64,000 bases of DNA from Candidatus Melainabacteria bacterium (GTDB lineage: Bacteria > Cyanobacteriota > Vampirovibrionia > Obscuribacterales > Obscuribacteraceae): positions 1 through 64,000 of the forward strand of contig JABDBL010000013.1 of the NCBI GenBank assembly GCA_013288645.1, written 5' to 3'. Below the pieces are notes generated by a model, which was not told the DNA's origin, made no database searches, and saw only the letters and a program-made list of their open reading frames with translations. Both the position numbers and the translations under genes were made by a program. Within the stretch, counting starts at the first letter, position 1, and each line of letters opens with the position of its first letter. This document shows, piece after piece, positions 8,758 to 35,651 of the stretch.

Positions 8758-9649
8758 ATGCTTAAACGTCAAAGAATTTTACTGCAACTATTAGCCGATT
8801 CTGGTGGAACACTGAATCGAACTAGGTTATTTAAACTAGCTTTCTTATTATCCCGACTGGGAAAAGCTAATTGCTTAGAAAATTTCTATGAGTTTCTTCC
8901 CTACCTTTACGGACCTTACTCATTCACGCTCAATCACGAACTCGATAATCTAGCATGCTCTGGTATGGTGAACTTTAACGACGATGGCAAAATTACACTA
9001 AGCGCGAAGGGTGGTGAAGCGGCAAATAGCTTGAACGAACCCGGGCTTTCTGACGATCGCAAACTAATAAGAAACGAGTATGGAAAATTGGGCCAGCAAT
9101 CGTTAATACAAACGGTTTATAAGCAATATCCGTGGTTCACGGTCAAGAGTTCGAAAGCATTAGCCAAAAACGCCACACAGATAAATTGTCGCTGTACAAA
9201 TTACACCATTGGGTATCAAGCCTATCAGGTTGACGGTTTACTAAATTTTTTATTGAAGCAAGGCATCCCGGCAGCTTATAGATACGAGACGTAATCCGGT
9301 TTCACGGCGATACGGTTTCCATAGAGGAACACTTGTAAAACTATGCCAAAAAGTGGGTATTACCTATGTTCACATTCCTGAACTTGGCATCCCTTCTAGT
9401 TGGAGACAAGATTTAACATCTGAAGAATCTTTCAAGACTTTGTTCAAGCGATACGATTCAGAAATACTGGACAAGCACACGTGTCTTCTTACAGAATTAG
9501 CGAAACAGATCGCTAAAGAGCCGTCTGCCCTAATGTGTCAGGAACGTGACCATACGCACTGCCATCGAAGTAGATTGGCAGACCGTCTGTCACGATTAAA
9601 TGGTTTATCTGTACTTGAGCTCAATAATCTATATGACAGAACAATTTGA
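8758..9649 (+). pseudogene. Winged-helix-like / DUF488 protein broken by one frameshift
   Basis: The first frame (8758-9294) encodes a winged-helix-like N-terminus (NRTRLFKLAFLLSRL, YGPYSFTLNHELDNL) and runs straight into the start of a DUF488 domain (NYTIGYQAYQVDGLLNFLLK). It then ends in an early stop. DUF488 continues in the +1 frame from about 9280: IDTRRNPVSRRYGF, GITYVHIPELGIPSSWR, and the conserved Cys/His end MCQERDHTHCHRSRLADRL, to the stop at 9649. Joined, the two parts make a protein of about 297 residues with all expected DUF488 motifs. One extra base between about 9265 and 9295 therefore separates them. This is either real inactivation or a sequencing error. DUF488 function is not established. 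Confidence 0.8.
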
Positions 9650-20738: not shown

Positions 20739-20886
20739 TGATCACTCGTTCGCAATGCCATAAAAAGTTTTCGATTCGCATTCTCGTTCAAGTTATAGAA
20801 TATAAGAGTCTCTATTGTAATATTCTATGATTTTCGTAATGTTATTATGGCCAAATCTCCTTCTAACCGTGTGAATATTTAAAATC

Positions 20887-21891
20887 ATGAAAAAATATTT
20901 TCTGCCTATTTTCAGTGCTTTGGTTGTTGCTTTTCCCGCCGCGTTTGCAGCTCAGTCAAAATGGGAGCAGGACATGAAAGAAGGACAAGAAGCTTTTCAC
21001 CAAGGAGAACTTGGTAAGGCAGAAAATGCATTTTTGTCTGCCATTACAGAAGCTAAAAAGTCCGGGAAAAATGATCTAAGGGCGGCAAAAAGTTTGAGCA
21101 GCCTGGCTGCGGCTTATAATAACGATGAAAAATTGGCTGATGCCGAGAATACATTTAAGCAGGCGCTTTCGATCAGAGAACAAATATTGAAACCTGGGCA
21201 TCCTGATCTGTGGAAAAATCTTATCGATCTTTCTGAGGTGTACGAACTAGAAGGCAAATTTAGTGATGCTGAAGCTTCATTAAAACATGCCCTGGCTATT
21301 CGACAACAGGCGGTGGGACCAAATCATCCTGATATTGCTGATAACTTATGTGATCTCGCCGCATTTTATGAAGACGACTTTAGTAAGAAAAAACAATCAG
21401 ATTATAATCAAGCTGAAATTTTGTACAAACGCGCTCTTACTATTAGAGAAAAAAGATGCGGTGCAAACAGCCTGCTTGTTGCCAATACTCTTGACGAGAT
21501 GACAGATTTATATGATAAATGGGTTAAATATGCTGAAGCCGAACAATTGTGTAGACGAGCTTTTTCTATCCATGAAAATATGCATAAATTTAAAGGTATT
21601 GAAAATAAATTTGATTACTTACATAAATTTGATTACATACAAAATAAACTTGATTACTTACATAAATTAGCCGATCTTTGTGATAAACAAGGCAAATACA
21701 ATGAGGCGGAGAAGTTTTATAAACAGGCCATTGTGATAGCCGAAAAAACTTGGGGGAAAGACAACGCTGGGATCGATCCATATCTAAATTATTTCAGTGA
21801 TTTTCTGCGGACAAGGAAGCGCGACAGTGAAGCTGAGAAAGTGGAATCACGCATGATTCTCCTAGAATCACATAGCGGTGCTGGCCCGTGA
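20887..21891 (+). CDS. Secreted TPR protein, kinesin-light-chain-like
   Basis: 334 residues. Signal peptide MKKYFLPIFSALVVAFPAAF (cleavage near AFA). Six or so 42-residue TPRs of the kinesin-light-chain kind follow, with the repeated core A...L..AL.IRE....P.HPD.A..L..LA..Y. Between repeats five and six the regular spacing is broken by a short Asp/Tyr-rich insertion (FDYLHKFDYIQNKLDYLHK) encoded by a threefold 18-bp DNA repeat. Presumably periplasmic or surface-exposed and protein-binding. It resembles the 1424-2167 gene product. Partner unknown. Confidence 0.82.
   Translation: MKKYFLPIFSALVVAFPAAFAAQSKWEQDMKEGQEAFHQGELGKAENAFLSAITEAKKSGKNDLRAAKSLSSLAAAYNNDEKLADAENTFKQALSIREQILKPGHPDLWKNLIDLSEVYELEGKFSDAEASLKHALAIRQQAVGPNHPDIADNLCDLAAFYEDDFSKKKQSDYNQAEILYKRALTIREKRCGANSLLVANTLDEMTDLYDKWVKYAEAEQLCRRAFSIHENMHKFKGIENKFDYLHKFDYIQNKLDYLHKLADLCDKQGKYNEAEKFYKQAIVIAEKTWGKDNAGIDPYLNYFSDFLRTRKRDSEAEKVESRMILLESHSGAGP
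21607..21663 (+). repeat. Threefold 18-bp coding microrepeat inside the TPR gene
   Basis: The unit AAATTTGATTACTTACAT begins at 21607, 21625 and 21646, with three substitutions in the second copy, one in the third and a 3-bp spacer before the third. All copies keep the reading frame and add a (K)(F/L)DY(L/I)xx repeat between two TPRs. Likely slippage-generated and probably length-variable. Confidence 0.75.
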
Positions 21892-21908
21892 CTTGGCTAT
21901 TCGATATC

Positions 21909-22580
21909 CTAACCCAGCCCTGCTTTCTTTCCCCTAGGAGGAATTATACCTTGCATGTGAGGATTAAATGTTTCAGGTGGTTCACCTCGCTCTATTGATT
22001 CAATCATCTGCAATAGTAATGAAGCTCAAGATTCCTCCTTTTCAAACTCCGTTCATGCGATCAATGTTGGAGTGATACCGTGATAAAATTTACTCTAACA
22101 ATATTCTCAGTTCATCGGCCGTTTTGCAAATACAAACTTCAGGATAGTCATTTGGCCGATCCGTTAAGCATTTGTCTGATGGTGCAATTGCTATTGTTTT
22201 TCAGTTACCGGCAGCATTACCCAGTTTCCTGCACAGAGTAGCTCAAACAGGAAATTAGTTAGTTTAGGCGAATGTCGATAAACGGCGACCATGCAACTAG
22301 TTTCCAGATTGTGGGCAAAAAGATCGGCTGAGCCACCATCATTAAAATTCAAATCAAAACAGCCATGATCATCCGGTCCTTTAGCTCCTGCTGTGCTCAC
22401 AACCTTCAGGACAGCTTTTACTTCGTCTGCACTTAGCGGATCACTGATAAGACTTGGTTCAGGAAAAAGATATCAAAACTCATGCAGACTCGCAAAAATA
22501 TTGATGACGGCGCTCGTAAAGAAGAAACGTAGATTGTATGATGGGTTCTTAGATGAGTTAAGTTTTAGTAGCGCGGTGAA
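21909..22580 (-). pseudogene. Decayed gene of about 220 codons, family unknown
   Basis: Reading the minus strand from about 22580 gives protein-like sequence with three in-frame TGA codons and two compensating one-base shifts. Segment 1 (to about 22194) reads FFFTSAVINIFASLHEF, TGA at 22473-22475, YLFPEPSLISDPLSADEVK and later NFLFELLCAGNWVMLPVTEK. After loss of one A in an A-run, frame 2 reads IAIAPSDKCLTDRPNDYPEV and ADELRILLE. One extra base near 22092 restores frame 1: KFYHGITPTLIA, TGA at 22053-22055, TEFEKEES, TGA at 22026-22028, ASLLLQMIESIERGEPPETF, ending IPPRGKKAGLG and TAG at 21909-21911. Upstream remains may extend to about 22650 in another frame. The rest of the gap to 22774 shows nothing clear. 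Confidence 0.6.
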
Positions 22581-22774
22581 CTACGACTACCCTCAAAAGT
22601 TTAAATGTTTTAGCTAAAGCATATAAACTATCGTTGAAAAGTTATCTAAATAAAGTAGCTGAATATGTCTGACTAATTTGAAGACCTGGAGAGGGCGAAG
22701 CAATAAAGTAACAGTGGCAAAAATTGATATTATATGTTACTTTTCAATAGATATTTGGGGAGGGGGGACAAATA

Positions 22775-24301
22775 ATGATTCAATGGAGCCGATTACTAAA
22801 ACTTTGTTTGGTCATTGTTCTGCTTTGGGTCACTGCTGATGCTATTGCTGTATTTGCCTGCGGCTCTCTTGCACCAGCAAGATTTACTAATACTATTGGC
22901 TTTGTATCGGAATTAGAGAAGGATGGTAAGCGTATACATCTTCTCGGTTACCAAAACACAGCCCAAAATAAAATCTATGGTGGCAATGCTTTATTTTTGC
23001 CCATTCCTGCTATTCCCGGTACGATGTCCGAAAAAAATATTGTCGATACGTCTGATATCTCGTATTTTATGGATGAGATGCAGAGAACAGTGACAAAGCC
23101 ACTGATTTCTCCTTCTGTGTGCAGTGGCATTGTATTTCTTGCTCTTCTAGCTCTATGGTTCTTCTTTCCAATCCCCGGATCAAATTTCTTGAAGAAGATG
23201 ATAAGCACCACATTCATCACTACCCTTGTAGTGGGACTATGTATATTAGTTGGCATTGGAGTTGGACTTTTTGGGGAGTTAATTCATGGGCAAATGGCTT
23301 CTACTCCAACTCAAGTAACTACCAATACCAATGCTGATACCAAGCCTAATCTTCCTTTGCGGCAAAGTGCTTCCAATACTACTGTTGCCCCACAGGGACA
23401 AGAAGCCACTTATGTCACGGGTGTAAATACAGCCGGAACGATCCGGGTAAATAATTTGGCCAATCTTGCTGCAATCCTAAATGCTATTACTAGCACCACT
23501 TTAATAGGTGGCATACTCACAGGTATCGTTTTAATAGTGCGTGGCTTTACCAAAAAAAATTTCAAAGCTAGCTTTATGGGAACAGACATTCCTGGTATAC
23601 AAATTTTAGCTGGCATACAGCTCATTCTTGTGGCATTCGTTTTTCCAATAATCATAAACTGGTTGATTGCTTCGGCTTACGATGCTCCTTTATTTGGTGA
23701 TCCTGGAGAGGCTGTTGTCTTCAATAGCGGCATTTACACAATTGTACTTGCCTCGGATGTGTCGCAAATACATGTTGCTCTTAATAAAGTTCCAGAGAAC
23801 AAACGTCCGGCTTTGAACCGCGAATTTTTTAATGCTTATAGCAAGTGGTATAAGGGCTGGACATTTGCTCTTTGTTGCTTTGATAATCAAGATGCGTTAA
23901 GGGCTACTCCCATGCTCTGGTGGTACGAGCCTAAATATCCTGACCTTATGTTTTTCCCGGCACTGGACGCGCATACTGGCAAACCACCAGATCTCGATGC
24001 CCAAGTTGAGGTAGATCACTGCCTGGTGGTGGCAAGTGATAAAGTAGAGTCTTTTCAAGATCTAATTCACATGGTAATTTCGCCCTGGCGCGATTTTCAA
24101 TTCATTACAAACCGAAGCGCAGAGAAACAAACGTATATTCCGCAGCGCATCATGGGACACTTTTATAAGGAGGTCATGTCCCAAGGCGATTTTCTTTTCC
24201 GCATAAAGGATGTAAGAAAAGGAATCTTTGAGCCAAAGAGAGCATTGCCACCAGGCGTAAGCAGTCCTCAATCTATTTGGAATTGTTCGGACAAAGGCTA
24301 A
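22775..24301 (+). CDS. Membrane protein: split soluble domain with a four-helix insertion
   Basis: 508 residues. Residues 8-28 form a signal or anchor helix ending in FAC-G, a weak lipobox at Cys29. A soluble part follows (30-110, with GGNALFLPIPAIPGTMSE and ISYFMDEMQ). Membrane helices lie at about 116-134, 150-170, 240-256 and 282-303, with a Thr/Asn-rich linker at 177-226. A large C-terminal soluble part (315-508) contains MLWWYEPKYPDLMFFPALD. The two soluble parts resemble the halves of an uncharacterised bacterial family as I remember it, but that is not verified. The last helix pair (230-310) is related to the 25492 protein. Very strong GGGGAGGGGGG site before the ATG. Function unknown. 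Confidence 0.7.
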   Translation: MIQWSRLLKLCLVIVLLWVTADAIAVFACGSLAPARFTNTIGFVSELEKDGKRIHLLGYQNTAQNKIYGGNALFLPIPAIPGTMSEKNIVDTSDISYFMDEMQRTVTKPLISPSVCSGIVFLALLALWFFFPIPGSNFLKKMISTTFITTLVVGLCILVGIGVGLFGELIHGQMASTPTQVTTNTNADTKPNLPLRQSASNTTVAPQGQEATYVTGVNTAGTIRVNNLANLAAILNAITSTTLIGGILTGIVLIVRGFTKKNFKASFMGTDIPGIQILAGIQLILVAFVFPIIINWLIASAYDAPLFGDPGEAVVFNSGIYTIVLASDVSQIHVALNKVPENKRPALNREFFNAYSKWYKGWTFALCCFDNQDALRATPMLWWYEPKYPDLMFFPALDAHTGKPPDLDAQVEVDHCLVVASDKVESFQDLIHMVISPWRDFQFITNRSAEKQTYIPQRIMGHFYKEVMSQGDFLFRIKDVRKGIFEPKRALPPGVSSPQSIWNCSDKG

Positions 24302-24348
24302 TATATTGTCGAAACACATGTTTTTGCAACATAGCCATATAGAGAAAC

Positions 24349-24903
24349 ATGAAAAAGTATCATCTGCGAGAACCAGCAAGAATCCTCTTCCATCTGGATC
24401 ATGGGTATACTAAAATATCTCTGGAAAGAACGGAGGGAAAAGGTCTTGCTTATGGGGGTGCTGAATGGGACATCCCGACTGCAAGCATTCCTCCGTATCT
24501 GCGAAAAATCGGTGCTCGGTTCATCATTATTACCGATACCATAACTCCTGAAGAAAATGATTCTGTCGAAGATATACGAAAAGAGCAGCTGATTCGTGTA
24601 GAAAACGGTTTCTGTGTCCGAGTGATAAATACATTTACATTGATTGGACGTGGCTTAATAGTAGTTGTCAGTCCGTGGGGAATTGACCGGTACCCCGCGT
24701 TAGGTGAAATTGGTAGCGCGAAAACGAATAAAGTTCGAGTGGAAATTCATCGTCCAGATGGTACTAGTTTAAGATTGTACGGATCGTTAGAAGGTATTTC
24801 TCCAAATGTATTTGGTTCCGCTACCATAAACTTGGGCGATATCGATCAGAAGGAAGTACCAATAGGATCGCAGATTTGGTCTTGCGAAGAATCTAAAGAC
24901 TGA
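24349..24903 (+). CDS. Stand-alone EF-Tu domain-II-like beta-barrel protein
   Basis: 184 residues, no signal peptide or GTPase motifs. The C-terminal half reads like domain II of translational GTPases: CVRVINTFTLIGRGLIVVV (compare the family pattern VEDVF.I.GRG.VV.G), then KVRVEIHRPDGTSLRLYGSL and ATINLGDIDQKEVPIGSQIW, where EF-Tu-like proteins have a loop, a strand and ...V..GD.L. The N-terminal 85 residues are not recognised. The fold call is from pattern recognition and is moderately secure; any role in translation is not implied. It lies between two membrane or secreted orphan genes on the same strand. Confidence 0.6.
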   Translation: MKKYHLREPARILFHLDHGYTKISLERTEGKGLAYGGAEWDIPTASIPPYLRKIGARFIIITDTITPEENDSVEDIRKEQLIRVENGFCVRVINTFTLIGRGLIVVVSPWGIDRYPALGEIGSAKTNKVRVEIHRPDGTSLRLYGSLEGISPNVFGSATINLGDIDQKEVPIGSQIWSCEESKD

Positions 24904-24930
24904 CATTAAAGGATAAGTTACGATAACACT

Positions 24931-25254
24931 ATGGATAACACGGGGAACAATACAATATTTGCCAGTTTACTTTTGGTAATCTGTACGACGATGGGCTTTG
25001 CTGATCCGACACATGAAAAGGCATCTCCCCAAGATATACAATTGAGCCGGGTCAGTATAGGGCTCGGCGCTGTGGAATCTATTAGTCTCCCGCTGGACTG
25101 GAAATTAGATCGTGTGCCAAACAGCACCAGCACAGATCAATATTTTCATGAAGTGAAAACAGGCGCATTTAAAGACTGTAACGCGGCACTGGGTGTTTAC
25201 ACTCCGCACAAATGTAATCCAGAAACCATTAGACACCTAGAGTTGGGAAATTAG
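24931..25254 (+). CDS. Small secreted protein, unknown
   Basis: 107 residues. A hydrophobic N-terminal segment (IFASLLLVICTTMGFA, residues 9-24) fits a signal peptide with cleavage after FA. The mature part of about 83 residues is polar with two cysteines (DCN and KCN) that may pair. No family recognised. It starts 27 bp after the 24349 gene and likely shares its transcript. It may be a shortened member of a longer family, since it ends without a clear C-terminal domain, but I cannot show that. Confidence 0.5.
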   Translation: MDNTGNNTIFASLLLVICTTMGFADPTHEKASPQDIQLSRVSIGLGAVESISLPLDWKLDRVPNSTSTDQYFHEVKTGAFKDCNAALGVYTPHKCNPETIRHLELGN

Positions 25255-25491
25255 CAGCTGCATATGCGGAAAAGCAGTAAACAGAAGTGGCAAAGGCAAT
25301 TGCAAATAAATAGACTCTTGACATTCATCAGTAAGGCTGGTAAGCTTTTTGACTAGCTTGAAGTCATTTACCAAGACTTTCAATTACTAATTACTAGACA
25401 AGGTAATGATGCTGATAATGGGGCAAGCCTCTAGGGATGTCTGCGGATTAGCCACTGCTATCGGTGGCACCTTACCATGGAGATCAATATT

Positions 25492-25932
25492 ATGATTTAT
25501 TTGTTGAGGAGCAGTCCGCATCAGATATTTGCAGACATCCTAATATTTCTATGTGTTGTAGCCTTTTCTGTGATTATGCTCATTCCAGCCAAAGCGCAAG
25601 ATCTACAAAATACCTCTATTTGTCCGCAAAACCCTGGATCTATCTACCTGGGTACCGATGAAGTCCGAGATAACAAACTGGCTAAACTTGAAACAGTTTT
25701 AAACATAATTGCAGGTGTTTTGGAAATTGCAGTTCTTATTGGTGGTGCGATTTTGATTATGCGTTCAATAGTCTTAGCAGATTCACTTTTCGTAATTCCT
25801 ATATTTAAACGGAAGCTCGGCAGACGCAGTCAGTTTATTTCTGGATGTGCACTAATTGCAATGGGATTGAATATTCCTGCAACTACTAATTGGCTTATTG
25901 TGTTCTTACGTGATGCGAACATCACGTCTTAA
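25492..25932 (+). CDS. Small membrane protein carrying the duplicated two-helix module
   Basis: 146 residues from ATG at 25492, with GGAG 9 nt upstream (an ATG at 25477 overlaps that site). An N-terminal signal or anchor helix (14-31, ending near AKAQ) is followed by a short loop with a Cys and then two helices (about 68-92 and 114-137). The region KLETVLNIIAGVLEIAVLIG, then GCALIAMG and NWLIVFLRDA parallels residues 230-310 of the 22775 protein (NLAAILNAITSTTLIGGILT, then NWLIASAYDA). The two genes therefore share a module. A third, partial copy follows in the same frame after the stop. Function unknown. Confidence 0.65.
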   Translation: MIYLLRSSPHQIFADILIFLCVVAFSVIMLIPAKAQDLQNTSICPQNPGSIYLGTDEVRDNKLAKLETVLNIIAGVLEIAVLIGGAILIMRSIVLADSLFVIPIFKRKLGRRSQFISGCALIAMGLNIPATTNWLIVFLRDANITS

Positions 25933-26028
25933 AGCTGTCGATTGAGTAATTTACAGCTAAGATTTGGATGCGGACTGATTATAATGGGGATTGCTATACT
26001 TGGAATTGTTAATTGGCTTCTTATGTAG
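25933..26028 (+). pseudogene. Third, truncated copy of the two-helix module
   Basis: Directly after the TAA of the 25492 gene, and in the same frame, 31 codons read LQLRFGCGLIIMGIAILGIV then NWLLM and a TAG at 26026-26028. They align with the end of the preceding protein (RSQFISGCALIAMGLNIPAT, NWLIVFL), and the DNA is also visibly similar. No start codon or ribosome-binding site belongs to it. It is best read as the leftover of a tandem duplication of the module's last helix. Confidence 0.6.
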
Positions 26029-26100
26029 CGCGTGGTGCATGTTATATTGGTGAATGATGAATTTGAGAACTAAGTTCAACAATTATCCAGAAAGGCGCCA

Positions 26101-26883
26101 ATGAGAAAAATTCGTTTGTTACTGGTGATATTTTTGGCGCTAACTGCTCAGTGCGGTCCTGTGTTCTCAGAATCAAGGGACAGCTTCTTCTCACCTAGAC
26201 CTATGCATTATAGTGGTGAAACCACTACATTAGTGATTGATACCGACATGAGCAAAATGCGCCATGATGGTCCAGACAACGGACATACAAGCATTTCTTT
26301 GTTGTCTAAAAACGGCGCTGTTTTATTCCAACGCAAATTAGATGATAATTTTAAGTGTCTTGGCTATAGTCGCGCCCAGCATGCTTACGTTTTACAGACA
26401 GTAGGCGAAACGGGAATATCGTTAAAAGTCGAAGCATTTGAATATCTACCTGAAGATAAGCCAGCTATAGTTTACTCAAAGAGTTTTACTCCCTCATTTG
26501 TTGCAGCAATGGAGGCAGTAGTACCCAGCCCAGATTTGAGATTTATTGTTTTCGTGGGTCGAGAGGAACTGAATAAGGACTATGTTTGTGATACAGTCTA
26601 TCAAGAGTCATTGATATGGCGCTTATACGTTTTGGACACAAAGTCAGATACAATTCGCTGTCTTGGCAAGGCACCAAATCCGCCACCACTTTCAAAATGG
26701 TACCTTGAAGAGGCAACAGATAGCTTCAATCCTTGCGACCAATGGCAATGGGGATTTGATGGTCCCATGCTGGAACAAAACATCTGCCAGTTTATATCAC
26801 CAAATGTGTTAAAAGTGAGTTACGGTAGAGATACCTGTAGACATCGGTCAAAAAAACGTCTCATTCGTAGGTGGACCCTATAA
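26101..26883 (+). CDS. Secreted protein, unknown (beta-rich)
   Basis: 260 residues. Signal peptide MRKIRLLLVIFLALTAQCGP (a Cys at 18 lies in the hydrophobic core, not a clear lipobox). The mature part alternates short beta strands and turns (TTLVIDTDMS, ISLLSKNGAVLFQRKL, LRFIVFVGREE, WRLYVLDTKSDTIRCLG). This recalls propeller-like proteins but shows no defined repeat. Four or more cysteines could form disulfides. AAAGG lies 7 nt before the ATG. Orphan gene in the same-strand series 22775-28360; nothing suggests an enzyme. Confidence 0.55.
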   Translation: MRKIRLLLVIFLALTAQCGPVFSESRDSFFSPRPMHYSGETTTLVIDTDMSKMRHDGPDNGHTSISLLSKNGAVLFQRKLDDNFKCLGYSRAQHAYVLQTVGETGISLKVEAFEYLPEDKPAIVYSKSFTPSFVAAMEAVVPSPDLRFIVFVGREELNKDYVCDTVYQESLIWRLYVLDTKSDTIRCLGKAPNPPPLSKWYLEEATDSFNPCDQWQWGFDGPMLEQNICQFISPNVLKVSYGRDTCRHRSKKRLIRRWTL

Positions 26884-27019
26884 TGAATTTCCAGATTAAG
26901 TTCAACATTGGATGCCATAATGACTAGGCTGCCCTAGCATAAGATGTAATTAAAAGCACAACGCTACAATCAATACGATATACAACCTTGATACTAACTC
27001 ACATTTTGGACTGAAGTCA

Positions 27020-28198
27020 ATGTATAGGAAAACGATCACAGTCTCACTTATTGCTCTGGCGCTGTTCCTTTTGCTCAAAGTATTGTGGGTATCCGTACTC
27101 TATGTTGGCGGTGATCAGCTGCTCGATGGGGACGCCAAAGAAGATCTTTTACACAGGCGAGCCTTTTTAAGAGGGGCGATTACCATTCGCCACGAGGAGC
27201 GACCAAGTAGCCAGAGCCTGCTGCCATCACGATTTCAAGGAGAGTGGGCACTGCTCAGTTGCTCCATGTACTCAATGGCTCTATGTAATCTCGCATTTCT
27301 GTATCCAGATTTGCGTGGGGAGCTAGCGCAGGAAATCCAAGCGCTTATTGGAAGAGTTCTCCAGAAATCCTATCGGCAATTTGATATAGATGCCTGGCAC
27401 GAAGATCCGCTTGATTCGCTATTATCAGAGAATGGCCACGTCTGGTATCTGGGACACCTAAACTTAATGCTCACCTGTTATCGACTGGCGGGGGGTGATA
27501 CTAGATATGATACTTTAACCCACCGCATTAGCGAAGCTCTAGCTCGCCGCATAAATCTAGATGCTGCCATGATTGCTCAAACTTATCCGGGCGAGAGATA
27601 TATTCCTGATAATTCAGTCGTGCTTGCATCACTAAAGAATCATGACATTGCATTTGGCACACAATACCACCAGCTCATAAGCAAGTGGAGACTGTCTGCA
27701 GAAGAAAAATTGATTCGCAACGATACAGGAACACTTGTGTTTGCAATATCGCCAGGAGCAAAATTGAGATCCCAAAGCCGCAGTTCTGGAGTGGCTTTTA
27801 GTTTGCTTTATCTCTTTCATGCCGATCCAGAGTTTTGCGGACAACAATATAGTAAACTCAAGCGCGCATTTGGCGCATGGTTCTTACCAGCGGTTGGAAG
27901 GTTTCCCGGCGCTGGTGCTCTAAAAGAAAACCCTGATGGTTCATGGAAAGGTGATATTGATTCAGGACCGGTAATATTTGGTTTTAGCCCTGCGGGTACT
28001 GGTTTTGGTGTTGGCTGCACTAGAGCGGCCGGCGACAGCGCCTTCCTTTCACAGATGTTGGTCACAGCAGAGATAGTCGGCTGTTCGATCGACTGGAATG
28101 GACAACGCCACTATCTCCTTGCTCCTCTTGTTGGTGAGGCGATTATGTTGGCGTCGAAAACCGCTACACCTTGGGATGGAAGATTTGTTCGTAACTGA
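27020..28198 (+). CDS. Membrane-anchored alpha/alpha-toroid-like protein (possibly linalool dehydratase/isomerase-like)
   Basis: 392 residues. One N-terminal helix (5-30) anchors the protein. The rest is a soluble domain with paired helices and conserved-looking stretches: SMYSMALCNLAFLYPDLRGE, WHEDPLDSLLSENGHVWYLG, HLNLMLTCYRLAGGDTRYD, PGERYIPDNSVVLASL, and near the end DIDSGPVIFGFSPAGTGFGV. These resemble, from memory, proteins grouped with the (alpha/alpha)-toroid linalool dehydratase/isomerase domain. Activity on terpenes is not implied. Acidic and Tyr-rich loops suggest a pocket. Last long gene of the orphan series. Confidence 0.55.
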   Translation: MYRKTITVSLIALALFLLLKVLWVSVLYVGGDQLLDGDAKEDLLHRRAFLRGAITIRHEERPSSQSLLPSRFQGEWALLSCSMYSMALCNLAFLYPDLRGELAQEIQALIGRVLQKSYRQFDIDAWHEDPLDSLLSENGHVWYLGHLNLMLTCYRLAGGDTRYDTLTHRISEALARRINLDAAMIAQTYPGERYIPDNSVVLASLKNHDIAFGTQYHQLISKWRLSAEEKLIRNDTGTLVFAISPGAKLRSQSRSSGVAFSLLYLFHADPEFCGQQYSKLKRAFGAWFLPAVGRFPGAGALKENPDGSWKGDIDSGPVIFGFSPAGTGFGVGCTRAAGDSAFLSQMLVTAEIVGCSIDWNGQRHYLLAPLVGEAIMLASKTATPWDGRFVRN

Positions 28199-28210
28199 GC
28201 GAGTATTTAA

Positions 28211-28360
28211 ATGGCAATTCTTCTTGATCCAAGCGATATGGATCTGTGTGCATATCGAGCCTCTAGTTATGATCGACAGGGACAGAAGGCTCTAGCGCAA
28301 AAGGACTGGCAAAAATATCACGAATTGGACGTTCAAAGAAAAGCTAAACTTTCAAAATAA
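28211..28360 (+). CDS. Possible 49-residue protein
   Basis: A 49-codon frame begins 12 bp after the stop of the 27020 gene, with no good ribosome-binding site. The product (MAILLDPSDMDLCAYRASSY, then DRQGQKALAQKDWQKYHELD) looks like a helix pair and could be a leftover of a TPR-like protein. Coding status uncertain. Confidence 0.3.
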   Translation: MAILLDPSDMDLCAYRASSYDRQGQKALAQKDWQKYHELDVQRKAKLSK

Positions 28361-28420
28361 TGCCTGGGTTCTCCGATATGGCATAAGATCTTTAAACTCA
28401 GAACATCTGACAAACTCAAC

Positions 28421-28449
28421 TTGACAGGGGTTTTTGTGCAGATTACACT
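28421..28449 (+). promoter_or_regulatory. Promoter of the TPR-TonB gene
   Basis: Perfect -35 TTGACA at 28421-28426, a 17-bp spacer and -10 TACACT at 28444-28449. Transcription would start near 28456 and give a 26-nt leader before ATG 28482. This favours that start over TTG 28434 or ATG 28458, which would lie before or at the start of the message. Confidence 0.65.
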
Positions 28450-28481
28450 TGCGGCAGATGGATTTTGGGAAGATTCAAAGC

Positions 28482-30440
28482 ATGAGAAAAATTCGAATCT
28501 GGCAGGCTCTAGCCGTGTCTGGCATAATGACACTACAGCCGTCTTTTGCAGCGCCATATACTAATATGGAAGATCTGGTAAAAGAATATGAGACACTTGA
28601 ACAAGAGATCCCGTTACTATTTGATCAAGAAACATCTCAAGTCAAAGCTGGAAATAAATTGCAAGCCCTCGCTAGTTTACGGCGTGCCAGTGTATTGATT
28701 GCGCAGATAGCAGTGGACTTAACATCAGGTGTCTGCTCGGGGAATCCGGCACCAGCGATACGCAAATTGCATCTTGAGGCAGCTAAGCGATTTGTGCAGC
28801 TAGAGGCTAATGACGACGCGGAGCGCGAGTTCAAGGCAGGCATAGACGTGCCACAGTCATTTGGAGACACAACTGGACTTCCAGAAGTCCAACAAGCCTA
28901 TAGCGATTTTCTGCGTAAAATAGGAAAAGTAGAGCTATCTAATGCCGCAGTTGACTCTAAATCTAGTACTGGGCTGAAAATAAAAAATAGTCGTTCTAAA
29001 ATAGACCTTAATTTTGCGATAGCTAGAGTTTGTTTTGAGAAAAAGGACTATAAAGAAGCATTCAGGCTCTATGAAGAGAACCGGCAGGCTTTGCAAAAGT
29101 TATTTGGTCCAAATGATTTAAGCCTGGCTCATTGTGATGCAAGCATGTCACTCATTCGCTATGCTGAAGGACAAAATGCTGAAGGACTTTTGCTTTATCA
29201 GAAAGCAATGAGTTTAGCGAGGAAAGTATTATTGGTTGGGGCAAAGAATCATTTACTCAACACGATTAAACAAGATTATTGCACATCAGTGCGTGTCATT
29301 GAGCTAAACAATGAGGCTGCTCTGGCGATAAATAAAGGAAATTTATTGCCGGCAATTGCAGACCTTAAAAAAGCATTAGCCATAGACCCTTGCTACGAGC
29401 TAGCAAGAGAAAATCTGGCCATTGCTTATAACAATTATGGTCTAAGCTTGGCTCCTAAGTGCGATCTTGCCTTAAAACAATTTGAGAAGTCGCTGTTTTA
29501 TGACAGAGGAAGTAGTACAGTTTCAGATAATTTAGACGGATGCTTCAAAATGATTAGTAAAAATCCGCAATCAGCTAAAGATCGTATAGTATTGGCTGAA
29601 CAGGCATTGAAAGAAAATGAACCTGAAAGAGCCATTTCTGAATATAGTGAAGCAATTAGAATTGATCCATCATGCATGTCGGCCAAGCAAGCATATTATG
29701 TGCCAAGCCTGTTGAGTCTTGCTCGGTATTATGCAAGTAAAGGTGATAATGATCAGGCAGGTTCTCTTGTAAAACAATCTCTAGAAAATTTGCACCAGCA
29801 AGCAGCAAACGAGCGGAATATTACTTTTACGTTATTAAAACATTGTTCTCAATTTGTTCCAGATAATATTTTAACAAAAGAAGAATTAAAACAACTCAGA
29901 GCTTCTCGCAGACATCACATTAAGAGATATTGCTTGCAAGCAGCTGAACTTGCTGCCAATGGAAAAACTGTGGAGGCAGAAGATAGTTACAAAAAAATGT
30001 TGACCAAGTATGATGAATTAAGGGAGGAAGATTGTGATCGATCTATAGCATCATGCTTGTTTATAGCCAGCTTATTTTTTGATGATCATGATAAATATCA
30101 AGACTCACTTCCAATGCTAACAAATGCCCTGGAAAATTATTTGCAATTTGGTTGGACCAATCCTGATTATTCAAAGTATATGGCTAATATGCAAACCCGC
30201 ATCAAATCCCTCTGGATGCCCCCTCAAGGACCAGTTAGTAAACGTACAATAGTTGATTATCAACTTTATAGAGATGGACAAATAGGTAATTTGAAACTTA
30301 AGCATTCTAGTGGCAATGCACTCCTTGATCGAGCAGGGCTAGATGCAGTGGAAAAATCGAGTCCATTTCCCATCCTACCAGTAGGCTCAGAGTCTCCGGT
30401 AGATATTGAATTCACTTTTAATTACCATGTGTACAAATAA
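28482..30440 (+). CDS. Secreted TPR protein with a TonB-like C-terminal domain
   Basis: About 652 residues. Signal peptide MRKIRIWQALAVSGIM (cleavage near SFA). The middle is TPR and helix-rich, including the canonical units AALAINKGNLLPAIADLKKA and LKENEPERAISEYSEAIRID. The last 70 residues read VDYQLYRDGQIGNLKLKHSS, then ALLDRAGLDAVEKSSPFPIL and DIEFTFNYHVYK. That is the TonB C-terminal fold as seen in energy-transducer-type proteins, but here without the usual N-terminal membrane anchor and Pro-rich spacer. No exbB or exbD is near, so an energy-coupling role is doubtful and a periplasmic scaffold is equally possible. Confidence 0.75.
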   Translation: MRKIRIWQALAVSGIMTLQPSFAAPYTNMEDLVKEYETLEQEIPLLFDQETSQVKAGNKLQALASLRRASVLIAQIAVDLTSGVCSGNPAPAIRKLHLEAAKRFVQLEANDDAEREFKAGIDVPQSFGDTTGLPEVQQAYSDFLRKIGKVELSNAAVDSKSSTGLKIKNSRSKIDLNFAIARVCFEKKDYKEAFRLYEENRQALQKLFGPNDLSLAHCDASMSLIRYAEGQNAEGLLLYQKAMSLARKVLLVGAKNHLLNTIKQDYCTSVRVIELNNEAALAINKGNLLPAIADLKKALAIDPCYELARENLAIAYNNYGLSLAPKCDLALKQFEKSLFYDRGSSTVSDNLDGCFKMISKNPQSAKDRIVLAEQALKENEPERAISEYSEAIRIDPSCMSAKQAYYVPSLLSLARYYASKGDNDQAGSLVKQSLENLHQQAANERNITFTLLKHCSQFVPDNILTKEELKQLRASRRHHIKRYCLQAAELAANGKTVEAEDSYKKMLTKYDELREEDCDRSIASCLFIASLFFDDHDKYQDSLPMLTNALENYLQFGWTNPDYSKYMANMQTRIKSLWMPPQGPVSKRTIVDYQLYRDGQIGNLKLKHSSGNALLDRAGLDAVEKSSPFPILPVGSESPVDIEFTFNYHVYK

Positions 30441-30532
30441 ATTGCTATAAGAGAATAGCAACGCATATGTTGCATTCAAATGGGAATTGAACATTGGTAC
30501 CTAAAGGCAAATTTGGTAATTGTTAGTTAGTA

Positions 30533-32278
30533 CTACCAACCATTTAAATGTTTGAGGTCAGACCAATATTGGCTTGTGGACAGCTGTTTTTTGAAGTCTT
30601 TGACAAATTGTGCTTTTGTGATCAGCTTATGGTTCGAGTCATCCTGATACGAACCGGTTTTGCCATTTGGCCATACCTTATCCAGATATTTCCAGGCAAG
30701 ATTGCCATTACCAGAATAGATAAGTTGAATCATATTTGACCAAATAGTAGATTTTAAGGGAGATAAATTTATCTGCCCTTCGGAAGATAAGCTTTCTATT
30801 TTTGTTTGTTTTACTAAGCTCGCAATGTATTGCTCATCCGGAGGCGGGCTTTTCATCAGATCTTCTGCCAGTACAAATTTGTCTTTTTCAAGTCGCAGGA
30901 TTATTGTAGCTTGTGGGGAGTCGCAATAAGCAGCATGCCAGTAAGCAAATACATTATCATTTCCTACAGCTGCACAATAGCCATTTCCGTAAAAGTCAAC
31001 AAAATAATAATTGCCAGAACCCGCATTATTCGAAGAATTTAACTCGGCAATTTTTTTAAATTCATTACCTAATGCAAACAATTTATAGTCAGCAGGCGGA
31101 TGAGCCCCTTCTGGATGATGTCCAATTATCAACATTGGTGGCAAAGATTTATCCATTCTTATTGCTGGAGTTTTTGCAGGTTTTAACTGTGAATAATCCC
31201 AGTATGCAAGCTTTCCGGCTGTTGCTATTTTCTTTACACCTGCAAATGGTATCACTAACCAGTATGAGTTGTTTTGATTTACTTTAGCGCTAAATACTGG
31301 TTTATTCTCTTGTTTATTTCCTTGCAAAATTTGTAAGCCGTCAGCTATTGGTCTATATTGGTAGTCGTTAAAGTCCCACTGTCTTTGATTATATATGCGT
31401 GTATAATCATTCAATAATGTCCATCTGAAGTTAGTATAATCTTCAATTTTATCTCCATCCTGTATGGTTTCGTTCTTCCATGCTGTAACGAAATCATCTT
31501 TTGCTTTTTGCTGCTGTCCTAATTCTTCATAGGCAATGCCGCGATTATAATAAAAATCGACTTCTCCTGGATCAAGACTTATGGCTTTATTTAAATTTTC
31601 TATCGCTCTATCATATTGCTTGAGCACCAAATATTCGACCGCACGATTTCCATAGGGCTCAGCAAAAAGAGCCTTATATTTTTCATTCATTCGCGGGTCA
31701 AGACTCACCGCTAATTGAAAATCGTCAATTGCCTTCTGGTGTAACTTCGTATACTCGTAAGCAATGCCCCGCAGGCGATAATATTCGGCATTTTTAGAAT
31801 CAATTTTTATTGCCGTGCTATAGTCAGCTATTGCCTTATTGTAATCTTTAGCTGCCTTACCGTATCTTTCTAAAGCAGTGGCGGCATTTGCACGCTTACA
31901 ATAAAGTGCAGCGTTTTGCGGATCAAGATCGATGGCATGGCTAAAATCAACAATAGCCTTTTCATATTCCACCCCTTCTGCATAAGCATCACCGCGGGCT
32001 ATATAAGCAGCCAAATACTTTGGGTCCAGGCGAATTGCTTCACTCCAGTCATTCATGGCTTTATTATCTGCCAGTGTAACCTTTTCATAGTAGGCACATC
32101 CACGCTCATAATAAGCTATAGGATCTTTTGGATTTTTAGCAATGGCTTGAGTATATTTATCAATCGATTTATCCTGAGCCCTAGCACTTAAACCAGGTAG
32201 CACGACAGCGACTGCTATCAGTAAAATAGCGGCAGCTACCCAAAGTATAAACACGAATTTATTGCTTCTATTTTCCAT
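30533..32278 (-). CDS. Membrane-anchored TPR protein with a C-terminal unknown domain
   Basis: About 581 residues. An N-terminal helix (10-32) anchors or exports the protein. Residues 40-275 hold about six classical TPRs with clear cores (AYYERGCAYYEK, YIARGDAYAEGVEYEKAIVD, YRLRGIAYEYTKLHQKAIDD, YYNRGIAYEELGQQQKAKDD). The C-terminal 300 residues have no recognised domain but include beta-rich stretches (SYWLVIPFAGVKK, NYYFVDFYGNGYCAAVG). ATG 32278 is chosen over the in-frame TTG 32290, which abuts the upstream stop. Same transcript as the 32291 gene. Likely a periplasmic scaffold or stress-type lipoprotein relative; role unknown. Confidence 0.75.
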   Translation of the reverse strand: MENRSNKFVFILWVAAAILLIAVAVVLPGLSARAQDKSIDKYTQAIAKNPKDPIAYYERGCAYYEKVTLADNKAMNDWSEAIRLDPKYLAAYIARGDAYAEGVEYEKAIVDFSHAIDLDPQNAALYCKRANAATALERYGKAAKDYNKAIADYSTAIKIDSKNAEYYRLRGIAYEYTKLHQKAIDDFQLAVSLDPRMNEKYKALFAEPYGNRAVEYLVLKQYDRAIENLNKAISLDPGEVDFYYNRGIAYEELGQQQKAKDDFVTAWKNETIQDGDKIEDYTNFRWTLLNDYTRIYNQRQWDFNDYQYRPIADGLQILQGNKQENKPVFSAKVNQNNSYWLVIPFAGVKKIATAGKLAYWDYSQLKPAKTPAIRMDKSLPPMLIIGHHPEGAHPPADYKLFALGNEFKKIAELNSSNNAGSGNYYFVDFYGNGYCAAVGNDNVFAYWHAAYCDSPQATIILRLEKDKFVLAEDLMKSPPPDEQYIASLVKQTKIESLSSEGQINLSPLKSTIWSNMIQLIYSGNGNLAWKYLDKVWPNGKTGSYQDDSNHKLITKAQFVKDFKKQLSTSQYWSDLKHLNGW

Positions 32279-32290
32279 TTTTATGAGCAA

Positions 32291-32869
32291 TCATTTCTTT
32301 TCGGGAAACGCAGCACCCACGTCTGCTGGTAGTTCCCCTGGTGTTCTTTTTACATCTGGTGAGGACGATGTATGTTCAACTCCATTTGGACGCCAGGTGC
32401 TAACCTGAACCAAGGTTGTCGCATCTGTAAGTTTTCCGTTGAAAAATTGATAGGCCGGATCTGCAGAATAAAGAGTACCAGTTAAGGTGAAATAGATACC
32501 GTATGGTGCGGTAGAAGAACCTGGTTTGGCTGGAAAAAGATATAGGCAAAAGAGTGATTCGCCCGGATGCCATTCCATCCCTTTGGGCAATTTTCCAGGC
32601 AGCCCTGGGAAATATTGAATATAGCATTCTTTCAACCAGGTAGGATTGATTAGAAATTTGGGCATATCGCAAGATCGGCGATTTACAAAGCTTGGCTCAT
32701 CAAAAATTTCTATGATCGCCTCTGCTCTCTTATTGTTTGGCAGCAGTAAATTGCCTGCAACCTTATTCAATCTCACTATCATAGGAATAGTTTCTTTAGC
32801 TGAACTTGTTTGCGTAAACGAAATTATAAGAGTACCCAGCAGAGGCCAAATAATATTCCTAAATTTCAT
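32291..32869 (-). CDS. Secreted protein, unknown
   Basis: 192 residues. Signal peptide MKFRNIIWPLLGTLIISFTQ (cleavage near SSA). The mature part holds three cysteines and Pro/Gly-rich loops (YFPGLPGKLPKGMEWHPGES, then LFCLYLFPAKPG). The Pro-rich tail (RTPGELPADVG) is probably disordered. No family recognised. It lies 12 bp before the TPR gene at 32278 on the same strand, so the two are likely made together. Confidence 0.55.
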   Translation of the reverse strand: MKFRNIIWPLLGTLIISFTQTSSAKETIPMIVRLNKVAGNLLLPNNKRAEAIIEIFDEPSFVNRRSCDMPKFLINPTWLKECYIQYFPGLPGKLPKGMEWHPGESLFCLYLFPAKPGSSTAPYGIYFTLTGTLYSADPAYQFFNGKLTDATTLVQVSTWRPNGVEHTSSSPDVKRTPGELPADVGAAFPEKK

Positions 32870-33091
32870 AATGCTCCAGGACGATATTCATTTTTATATC
32901 TATTATCTCCGGGTAAGCGCAATTTGCAAATTATAATCTATAACTGCTTTTCCCGCTGGGCAACGTTTAATGGATTTTAGTCTACAGGTCTATAATTTAA
33001 TTCTTTCAATAGTTATACGTACAATGCTATCATCATTATTACGTTAAAATGTTAGGTTATGTAGAAACAGAGTCGTTAGAAGAATCATGTC

Positions 33092-33868
33092 ATGAAAGAA
33101 AATACTACCCTTCAGACTGTTCGTGGGCTATTAGATCGCCTAATAAGCGTAGAGCGATTATCTGATAACGACGAGAAAGAGACTGCTCATAACGAAGCGA
33201 TAAAAGCCATCAAAGAACTACCAAGACCGAGAATTTTAGCGATATTAGACGAAGCTGTTGGAAAAAATAAAAGCCGTAAGCTAGCCTCCGTTTACATACT
33301 TTCAGAATTGACTGATGTGCCAGAAGTTATCATACGCATCAAAGAAATGCTCACAGATCCCGATTCAAATACACGCAGTATGCTTGTTCAAACAATAGAG
33401 TTTGCACAGTTAACTGGCCTTGCAGACTACCTTAGTGATATCATTGAGAACGATCCAGATGAATTTGTGAGAAGCAGGGCAATACATGCTGCTGGTACGC
33501 TCAAAGCGCAGACTAGTCTTCCTGTCTTGTTACGTTTAGCAAATAGCCAGGCGGAGTCGGGGGAACAAGGAGACATGCGTTGGCACACCTTATGGGCACT
33601 GCAGGCATACACAGATGAAAGCTGCCGGCAAATTCTGAGTGAAGCTTTTATGAATCCAGAAGAAAGACAGCATAAAGTAATCGCCGCCTGGGGATTGGGA
33701 AAACTTGGCGATAAGGAAGCGATTAAATATTTAATTGCCATGCTGGAGGTTCCATATAGTTCTTTGCGGGCAGCACAAGCATTGTGTGAGATCTATGGGT
33801 GGGAGTTTAAGCACAACTTGACCCGACTCAACGAAATTCGTCAGCTGACCCAAGAAATAAAACTCTAA
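33092..33868 (+). CDS. HEAT-repeat protein
   Basis: 258 residues, cytoplasmic. Several HEAT / PBS-lyase-type repeats are visible: VRSRAIHAAGTLKAQTSLPV, RWHTLWALQAYTDESCRQIL, KVIAAWGLGKLGDKEAIKYL and SSLRAAQALCEIYG. Such repeats bind partner proteins, and in cyanobacteria relatives attach or detach phycobilins, but no phycobiliprotein is encoded here, so that role should not be assumed. N-terminal 60 residues are a helical region. Stands alone on the + strand. Confidence 0.75.
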   Translation: MKENTTLQTVRGLLDRLISVERLSDNDEKETAHNEAIKAIKELPRPRILAILDEAVGKNKSRKLASVYILSELTDVPEVIIRIKEMLTDPDSNTRSMLVQTIEFAQLTGLADYLSDIIENDPDEFVRSRAIHAAGTLKAQTSLPVLLRLANSQAESGEQGDMRWHTLWALQAYTDESCRQILSEAFMNPEERQHKVIAAWGLGKLGDKEAIKYLIAMLEVPYSSLRAAQALCEIYGWEFKHNLTRLNEIRQLTQEIKL

Positions 33869-33870
33869 AA

Positions 33871-34020
33871 ATGATGAACGTGAAATTTAAATATTGTGTG
33901 TTGTTAGTAATATTGGTTCTCGTTTTCTTGAACTCGCGTGCTAGCTATTCAAAATCTGATGATAATAAAATACACGGTTTTGATTTGAGCGTTTGTAGAT
34001 GCTCCCTACAGCTGAGCTAA
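33871..34020 (+). CDS. Possible 49-residue secreted peptide
   Basis: A 49-codon frame begins 2 bp after the HEAT gene's stop. Its product has a clear export-like start (KFKYCVLLVILVLVFLNSRA) and a short polar tail with two cysteines. No ribosome-binding site is obvious, so translation would depend on coupling to the upstream stop. It overlaps the tail of the opposite-strand membrane gene by 15 bp. Confidence 0.35.
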   Translation: MMNVKFKYCVLLVILVLVFLNSRASYSKSDDNKIHGFDLSVCRCSLQLS

Positions 34021-34251
34021 TCCGGTAATGTACGAATAGATCGGTCGTATAGTAAAGAACGAATTTGCGATTGTTAGTATTATCATCAAACAGATCGTTA
34101 AAATCTTGTTATTGCTCGACACGAAAAACTTTCTTAGCAACCAAAATTCAATTGAAGCTAATATTATTGGCGGAAGTAAGAGAATAAGAATAAGAAAAAT
34201 TATAAATAGCCAACCGCTTAGTTGTTGAGCTATATGTACTAGATTATTCAT
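34006..34251 (-). CDS. Small two-helix membrane protein
   Basis: 81 residues with two or three membrane helices (FIIFLILILLLPPIILASIE and ILTICLMIILTIANSFF) and a central basic loop. AAGGA lies about 11 nt before the ATG. No family recognised. Confidence 0.5.
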   Translation of the reverse strand: MNNLVHIAQQLSGWLFIIFLILILLLPPIILASIEFWLLRKFFVSSNNKILTICLMIILTIANSFFTIRPIYSYITGLAQL

Positions 34252-34469
34252 CTAAGTTGTCCTTTTAGCAATTTAGGTAAATTGAAAATCCTGGTCTTTA
34301 TAATCCCATTTTATAGGAGTGGAGAAAAATAATGCCGCCAAATAGAACAGTTAATAAACTGTTTCGACCAGCCGCACCTTCTCTTCTATACATCAGTTGA
34401 GTTTTAGTTCAATTTACCGGTTTGAGTGACCAGATCATCAGGAGAAACCCACTTCTTTGATTAGCTGGG

Positions 34470-35651
34470 CTATTTACTCCTTGAAAGCGAGTCAGAAGGT
34501 GAAATTGTACCCTCCAGTCTTTGCTTCCAGTAGTGTTTCAGCCTCGCTTCATTCTTTGCTTGATCTTCGGAAGGGTCAAGAAAGCTGCCGGCATATTTGC
34601 CTGCGAAGAATGCGGATTCCAGATCGAAGTGGGTACCATAAATGTGATTCAGAAGTCTATAAGCGTTATAGCACAATATAGGATTAGGCGCATCAATTGC
34701 TCGCAAGAGTTCTTTCTGAGTCTTTGGCGAATGCAAATCTGTATCCAAATTAAACCCAGCTTGTGAGAAACCGTCAAGAACAGCTGCCTGCCAATTGCCA
34801 TCGGAATGTCCTTTCAAAAAGTTACGCCACCACACCTTCGCATTTTCCGATGCCTTTTCTGCTATCTTTCGCGCGTGCTCTCCAGTACCTTCTTCTTGTT
34901 TCAAATGGCGTAATTCCGTAAAGAAATCCCGGTTGCTTGCAAAGCTCAATGCACTAATCACATTGCTGCATACTGACCAATGCCTCGGGTCCATGGTGCT
35001 TTCGAGTAGATCAAAATCTTTCAAATCCAGGGTTCCTAAAAGATATGCTGATGCGTGCCAGATAGCCATTTCAAGTCCTTCGCTATCGTTATTCTTCGGT
35101 TTTAGTGCTTCTTTATAGATGGTAGCAAGATTAGTGGCATGATAGTGACCCACGCCCAGTTTTGTCGATTCGATAGCCATTTTCTCAAGAGAAGTCAAAG
35201 TCTCTTTGGTATCATTATCCAATTGTCCTTTTCCCATATAGAATGCATCTCCAACACTGACCACGTAAGGAGCAGCATTGAGAATATAGAATCGTGTGCC
35301 TGGTGAGATAGCATTTTCAGAAGCTCTCGTAAGCATAGGGCTCAGCGTTGCTGGATCATGGAACGGAATAAGCGCAATAGCGGCAAATGCCAAGCCCGTC
35401 CCATCTTTGGCCCTCGCCACGTAATCGACTAACGCTTGCTTGCACTTATCGTCTTCAGGATATACCTGCCAAAGGCTTTCCTTAGCTTGTTTCAAGAACT
35501 GCTTTGGTTCGACCTTCGCAGTAAACTGCTTTACTAGTGCGGGTTCAACTGGGTTAGGCTCTTGAGCAAATGACGCTGTAGAAAAGAGAAATGATAGTGT
35601 TAATACGGTCGGTAAGCAATATTTGGATTGGATAATGTATTTTTTAATCAT
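34470..35651 (-). CDS. Secreted helical protein, unknown
   Basis: 393 residues. Signal peptide MIKKYIIQSKYCLPTVLTLS, cleavage after SFA. The mature part is helix-rich and evenly spaced, recalling HEAT/ARM-type or superhelical proteins, without a defined motif. The ATG overlaps the stop of the M20 peptidase gene by 4 bp (ATGA), so it is translated with it. A link to peptide breakdown is possible only by position. The end is near a + strand region without genes. Confidence 0.55.
   Translation of the reverse strand: MIKKYIIQSKYCLPTVLTLSFLFSTASFAQEPNPVEPALVKQFTAKVEPKQFLKQAKESLWQVYPEDDKCKQALVDYVARAKDGTGLAFAAIALIPFHDPATLSPMLTRASENAISPGTRFYILNAAPYVVSVGDAFYMGKGQLDNDTKETLTSLEKMAIESTKLGVGHYHATNLATIYKEALKPKNNDSEGLEMAIWHASAYLLGTLDLKDFDLLESTMDPRHWSVCSNVISALSFASNRDFFTELRHLKQEEGTGEHARKIAEKASENAKVWWRNFLKGHSDGNWQAAVLDGFSQAGFNLDTDLHSPKTQKELLRAIDAPNPILCYNAYRLLNHIYGTHFDLESAFFAGKYAGSFLDPSEDQAKNEARLKHYWKQRLEGTISPSDSLSRSK

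Follow-up and report, generated by a model that had tools for sequence, protein, structure and literature searches.

Bacterial pseudogenes generally show frame changes and nonsense codons in a gene that is intact elsewhere, and immunity genes of polymorphic toxin systems usually lie directly downstream of the toxin gene. The locus described here, in a window of 64,000 nucleotides (the whole stretch of DNA analysed) from a genome that is Obscuribacterales-like by its gene content, follows the first pattern. With a probability of about 0.88, we read it as an accessory gene that has decayed into a pseudogene, with about 148 codons on the minus strand (22483-22042), belonging to a sparsely distributed family, here called MSFD(V/I)F, and lying in a strain-variable stretch. 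It is a pseudogene of the ordinary kind, with nothing unusual in the genetic code. The features are as follows.

20739-35647, no strand: variable stretch of 14.9 kb in which the pseudogene lies; the stretch is missing in G001, a genome of the same genus, flanks compared
22042-22483, minus: pseudogene, MSFD(V/I)F family, about 148 codons; homologue-only profile in three colinear frames, full-length alignment with the homologue L041
22483-22481, minus: start ATG; homologues start here
22463-22483, minus: N-terminal piece MSFDIFF, frame of 22483; model positions 1-8 (MSFDIFFL)
22475-22473, minus: first TGA, out of frame; last base of Phe and first two of Asp in the MSFD start
22421-22462, minus: zone of the first frame change; both frames open, profile matches, site placed only to this zone
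22208-22460, minus: core segment DPLSADEV...GNWVMLP, frame of 22790; profile match about 22421-22208 (19.3 bits), coding score
22193-22207, minus: second frame change, at or beside a five-A run (22201-22197); placed by stop positions in each frame
22042-22200, minus: C-terminal piece TIAIAPSDKC...TADELRILLE-stop-ILSRYHSNIDRMNGV-stop, frame of 22788; model positions 119-152, aligns with the L041 C-terminus
22092-22090, minus: TAA, the sole nonsense codon within the true frame, from the stop list of each frame
22055-22053, minus: second TGA, out of frame; two bases of Met and one of Asn in the 'DRMNGV-stop' of the C-terminal piece
22044-22042, minus: natural stop TGA; homologues end nearby
22028-22026, minus: third TGA, 3' of the natural stop
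21909-22041, minus: segment outside the gene; weak coding score, no homologue

The 883-bp gap (21892-22774) is bounded by a TPR-protein gene ending at 21891 and a gene for a 508-aa protein starting at 22775, both on the plus strand. On its minus strand, the frame of 22790 has no stop between 22472 and 22194, and that of 22788 none between 22200 and 22093; phase-aware coding scores are above zero across most of the former interval. The score over 22208-22463 was 10.6 bits, a value reached by none of 1000 random sequences of like composition, and that over 22093-22200 was 0.2. Rfam and terminator scans of the gap returned nothing, nor did a tRNA scan of the window. The neighbouring 508-aa protein (22775-24301, plus strand) has no Pfam match; parts of it are present in all 50 of the family genomes searched, with up to 26 matches per genome, and it is a lineage-specific expanded family.

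Intact relatives of the pseudogene are found elsewhere. When the genome collection was scanned with a degenerate DNA pattern for the GNWVMLP region, four places matched. Two of these are intact genes whose architecture agrees: L041, of 161 aa, from an Acidobacteria MAG, and L040, of about 160 aa, from a Phycisphaerales MAG. The other two, L038 and L039, were chance matches. A model with the three frames joined and X at the stops aligned with L041 over the whole length (E = 9e-15) and with L040 over residues 1-118 (E = 1e-9), the identity between the window copy and its homologues being only about 30%. Distant relatives were found on Rhodococcus and Streptomyces plasmids, with marginal E-values. 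A profile built from L040, L041, L049 and L050 alone (intact homologues of Acidobacteria, Phycisphaerales, Rhodococcus and Streptomyces), with the window left out, was applied to the gap in all six frames. It matched the minus strand colinearly at profile positions 1-8 (frame of 22483), 20-96 (frame of 22790) and 119-152 (frame of 22788), with no comparable match elsewhere among the six frames. The core match scored 19.3 bits, whereas 1000 shuffled copies translated in all six frames reached 6.1 bits at best, and the claim of a sequence-only reading that the gap holds protein-like minus-strand sequence is thus borne out by both profile and coding score. Taken singly, only the core match reaches significance; the end pieces score -1.3 and 0.7 bits, and gain weight because of their colinear order and the end-to-end alignment with L041.

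The conserved start, core and C-terminal motifs of the family occur in the window copy in order. Its MSFD start is common to L040, L041 and L050, and with L041 and L040 it shares GPD(D/E)xG, DG, F-x-F-(E/D), AG(D/N)xV-x-x-P and (S/T)A-x-EL, in the same order and over a similar length. Unlike these two homologues, it is broken by two frame changes and one TAA, and a short loop is missing from it, as are a few residues at the C-terminus. Searches of 53 genomes of the order and of the phylum sample gave no other credible copy; weak matches in G001, G073 and G066 were, on inspection, full of stops and due to chance.

Translation from the ATG at 22483 meets a stop at 22435, after 16 codons, and the family protein can therefore no longer be made; judged from its reading frames, the window copy would be non-functional. 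The N-terminal frame change had been missed in the sequence-only reading, which placed 'FASLHEF-x-YLF' at the N-terminus; this is 'MSFDIFF' read in the wrong frame. That reading had also proposed two compensating one-base shifts. The one near 22194 is real and is seen near 22194-22203, where the frame of 22790 is closed by a TAG (22193-22191) and that of 22788 opens at 22200. The return to the first frame did not hold up, as the C-terminal piece keeps the frame of 22788 to its own stop ('DRMNGV-stop'); the second proposed shift skips the in-frame TAA at 22092-22090.

The genomic setting is variable. In G001 the ispF gene and a peptidase gene are convergent and 17 bp apart; in the window the same pair flanks 14.9 kb (20739-35647), and in G019 about 1.6 kb lies at this junction. 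The pseudogene thus sits in a stretch that differs between genomes. We suggest that the gene arrived with this stretch, or that this lineage alone retained it, and that its function would then have been lost through ordinary mutation. There is no close relative by which to date or score the decay.

Given that the sequence comes from a MAG, the gene might be intact and broken only by assembly errors, that is, indels at short homopolymers. The second frame change does fall at a five-A run, and a DUF488 gene elsewhere in the window also shows one frame change, so that single errors are conceivable. However, twelve core orthologues compared with G001 over 13.2 kb contained no frame break, which argues against a high error rate and for real decay, whereas the 442 bp of the pseudogene contain two frame changes, a TAA and some missing residues. 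We consider assembly error improbable, and these lesions are best read as true decay.

Another explanation would be that the open frames arose by chance, with no gene behind them. A read-through in the frames of the sequence-only reading, with X at stops, gave no credible match in Pfam or NCBIfam, in the family genomes or the phylum sample, or in scans of viral and genome contigs, plasmids and phages, as this explanation would have it. The distant homologues surfaced only after the N- and C-terminal frames had been set correctly; their matches then stood well above those of shuffled sequence and were colinear, which makes a chance origin very improbable.

That a gene of 220 residues had its Trp codons mutated to, or recoded as, TGA is so unlikely that it may be set aside: the three TGAs do sit on the path chosen in the sequence-only reading, but two are out of frame inside homologous sequence and the third is past the natural stop, the last segment of that path has no homologue, and TGA ends 12 of the 50 ORFs of the window, which together hold 190 TGG codons. 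The gene uses none of the three as a codon and has no Trp-to-TGA change, and before the natural stop no TGA stands in frame, as recoding at a Trp or Cys/Sec kept by homologues would require. TGA serves here as an ordinary stop, and the three are not recoded Trp or Sec codons. The first can be seen in CATGAGTTTTGATATCTTTTTC, which reads 'HEF-stop-YLF' in the frame of the sequence-only reading and MSFDIFF in another. The path had sidestepped TAG and TAA codons, as the stop list of each frame shows, and because its frame changes avoided these, only TGAs were left on it, a selection effect. Free choice of frame shifts can thus turn out-of-frame stops into an apparent pattern, and the apparent sign of TGA recoding, or of decay biased to Trp codons, proves false. 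Of the earlier description as a recent pseudogene with TGG-to-TGA changes, the pseudogene survives and the changes at Trp codons do not.

The proposed length of about 220 residues also gives way to about 148 codons, since the ATG at 22483 coincides with the start of the homologues and the TGA at 22044-22042 lies near their end. The segment beyond this stop, 'EFEKEES...GLG' (21909-22040), had been taken as part of the gene. Its coding score is weak (5.0 over 21912-22040, which 13 of 1000 composition-matched random sequences also attained), and it has no relative in 50 family genomes and no homologue match. It may be the relic of another gene, or chance. A Shine-Dalgarno-like motif, AAAGGAGG (22028-22041, minus strand), stands directly 3' of the natural stop, with the weakly coding-like stretch behind it.

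As for the role of the family, its relatives are annotated as 'hypothetical protein' and are uncharacterised, and it has no match in Pfam, NCBIfam or PHROGs. AlphaFold modelling of L041 (two sequences) gave a pLDDT of 68, and the PDB contained no significant fold match (best hit at E 0.03, TM no higher than about 0.4), so function cannot be derived from the fold. One distant relative, vnz_RS37630 (4001-4387 of L053, an S. venezuelae plasmid), lies 66 bp downstream of a Tox-REase-5 gene and in this position resembles the immunity genes of polymorphic toxins; this lead is marginal and stands alone. PMC3482391 lists Tox-REase-5 together with Imm52. Unlike known immunity proteins, the MSFD(V/I)F family matches neither Imm52 nor other Imm models of Pfam, and the other relatives have no such toxin gene directly adjoining; none was found beside the window copy. 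It is a doubtful proposition that MSFD(V/I)F is an as yet unnamed family of immunity proteins from interbacterial toxin systems and that the window copy is what remained once its toxin partner had been lost. The gain is modest: a variable part of the genome contains a decayed representative of a protein family that has no model.

The DUF488 gene mentioned above (about 9181-9649, plus strand) is apparently split by its single frame change. The N-terminal half is read in the last part of the ORF at 8758-9294, and the remainder lies in the ORF at 9353-9649, which matches the Pfam DUF488 model from position 44 on (E = 6.5e-16).
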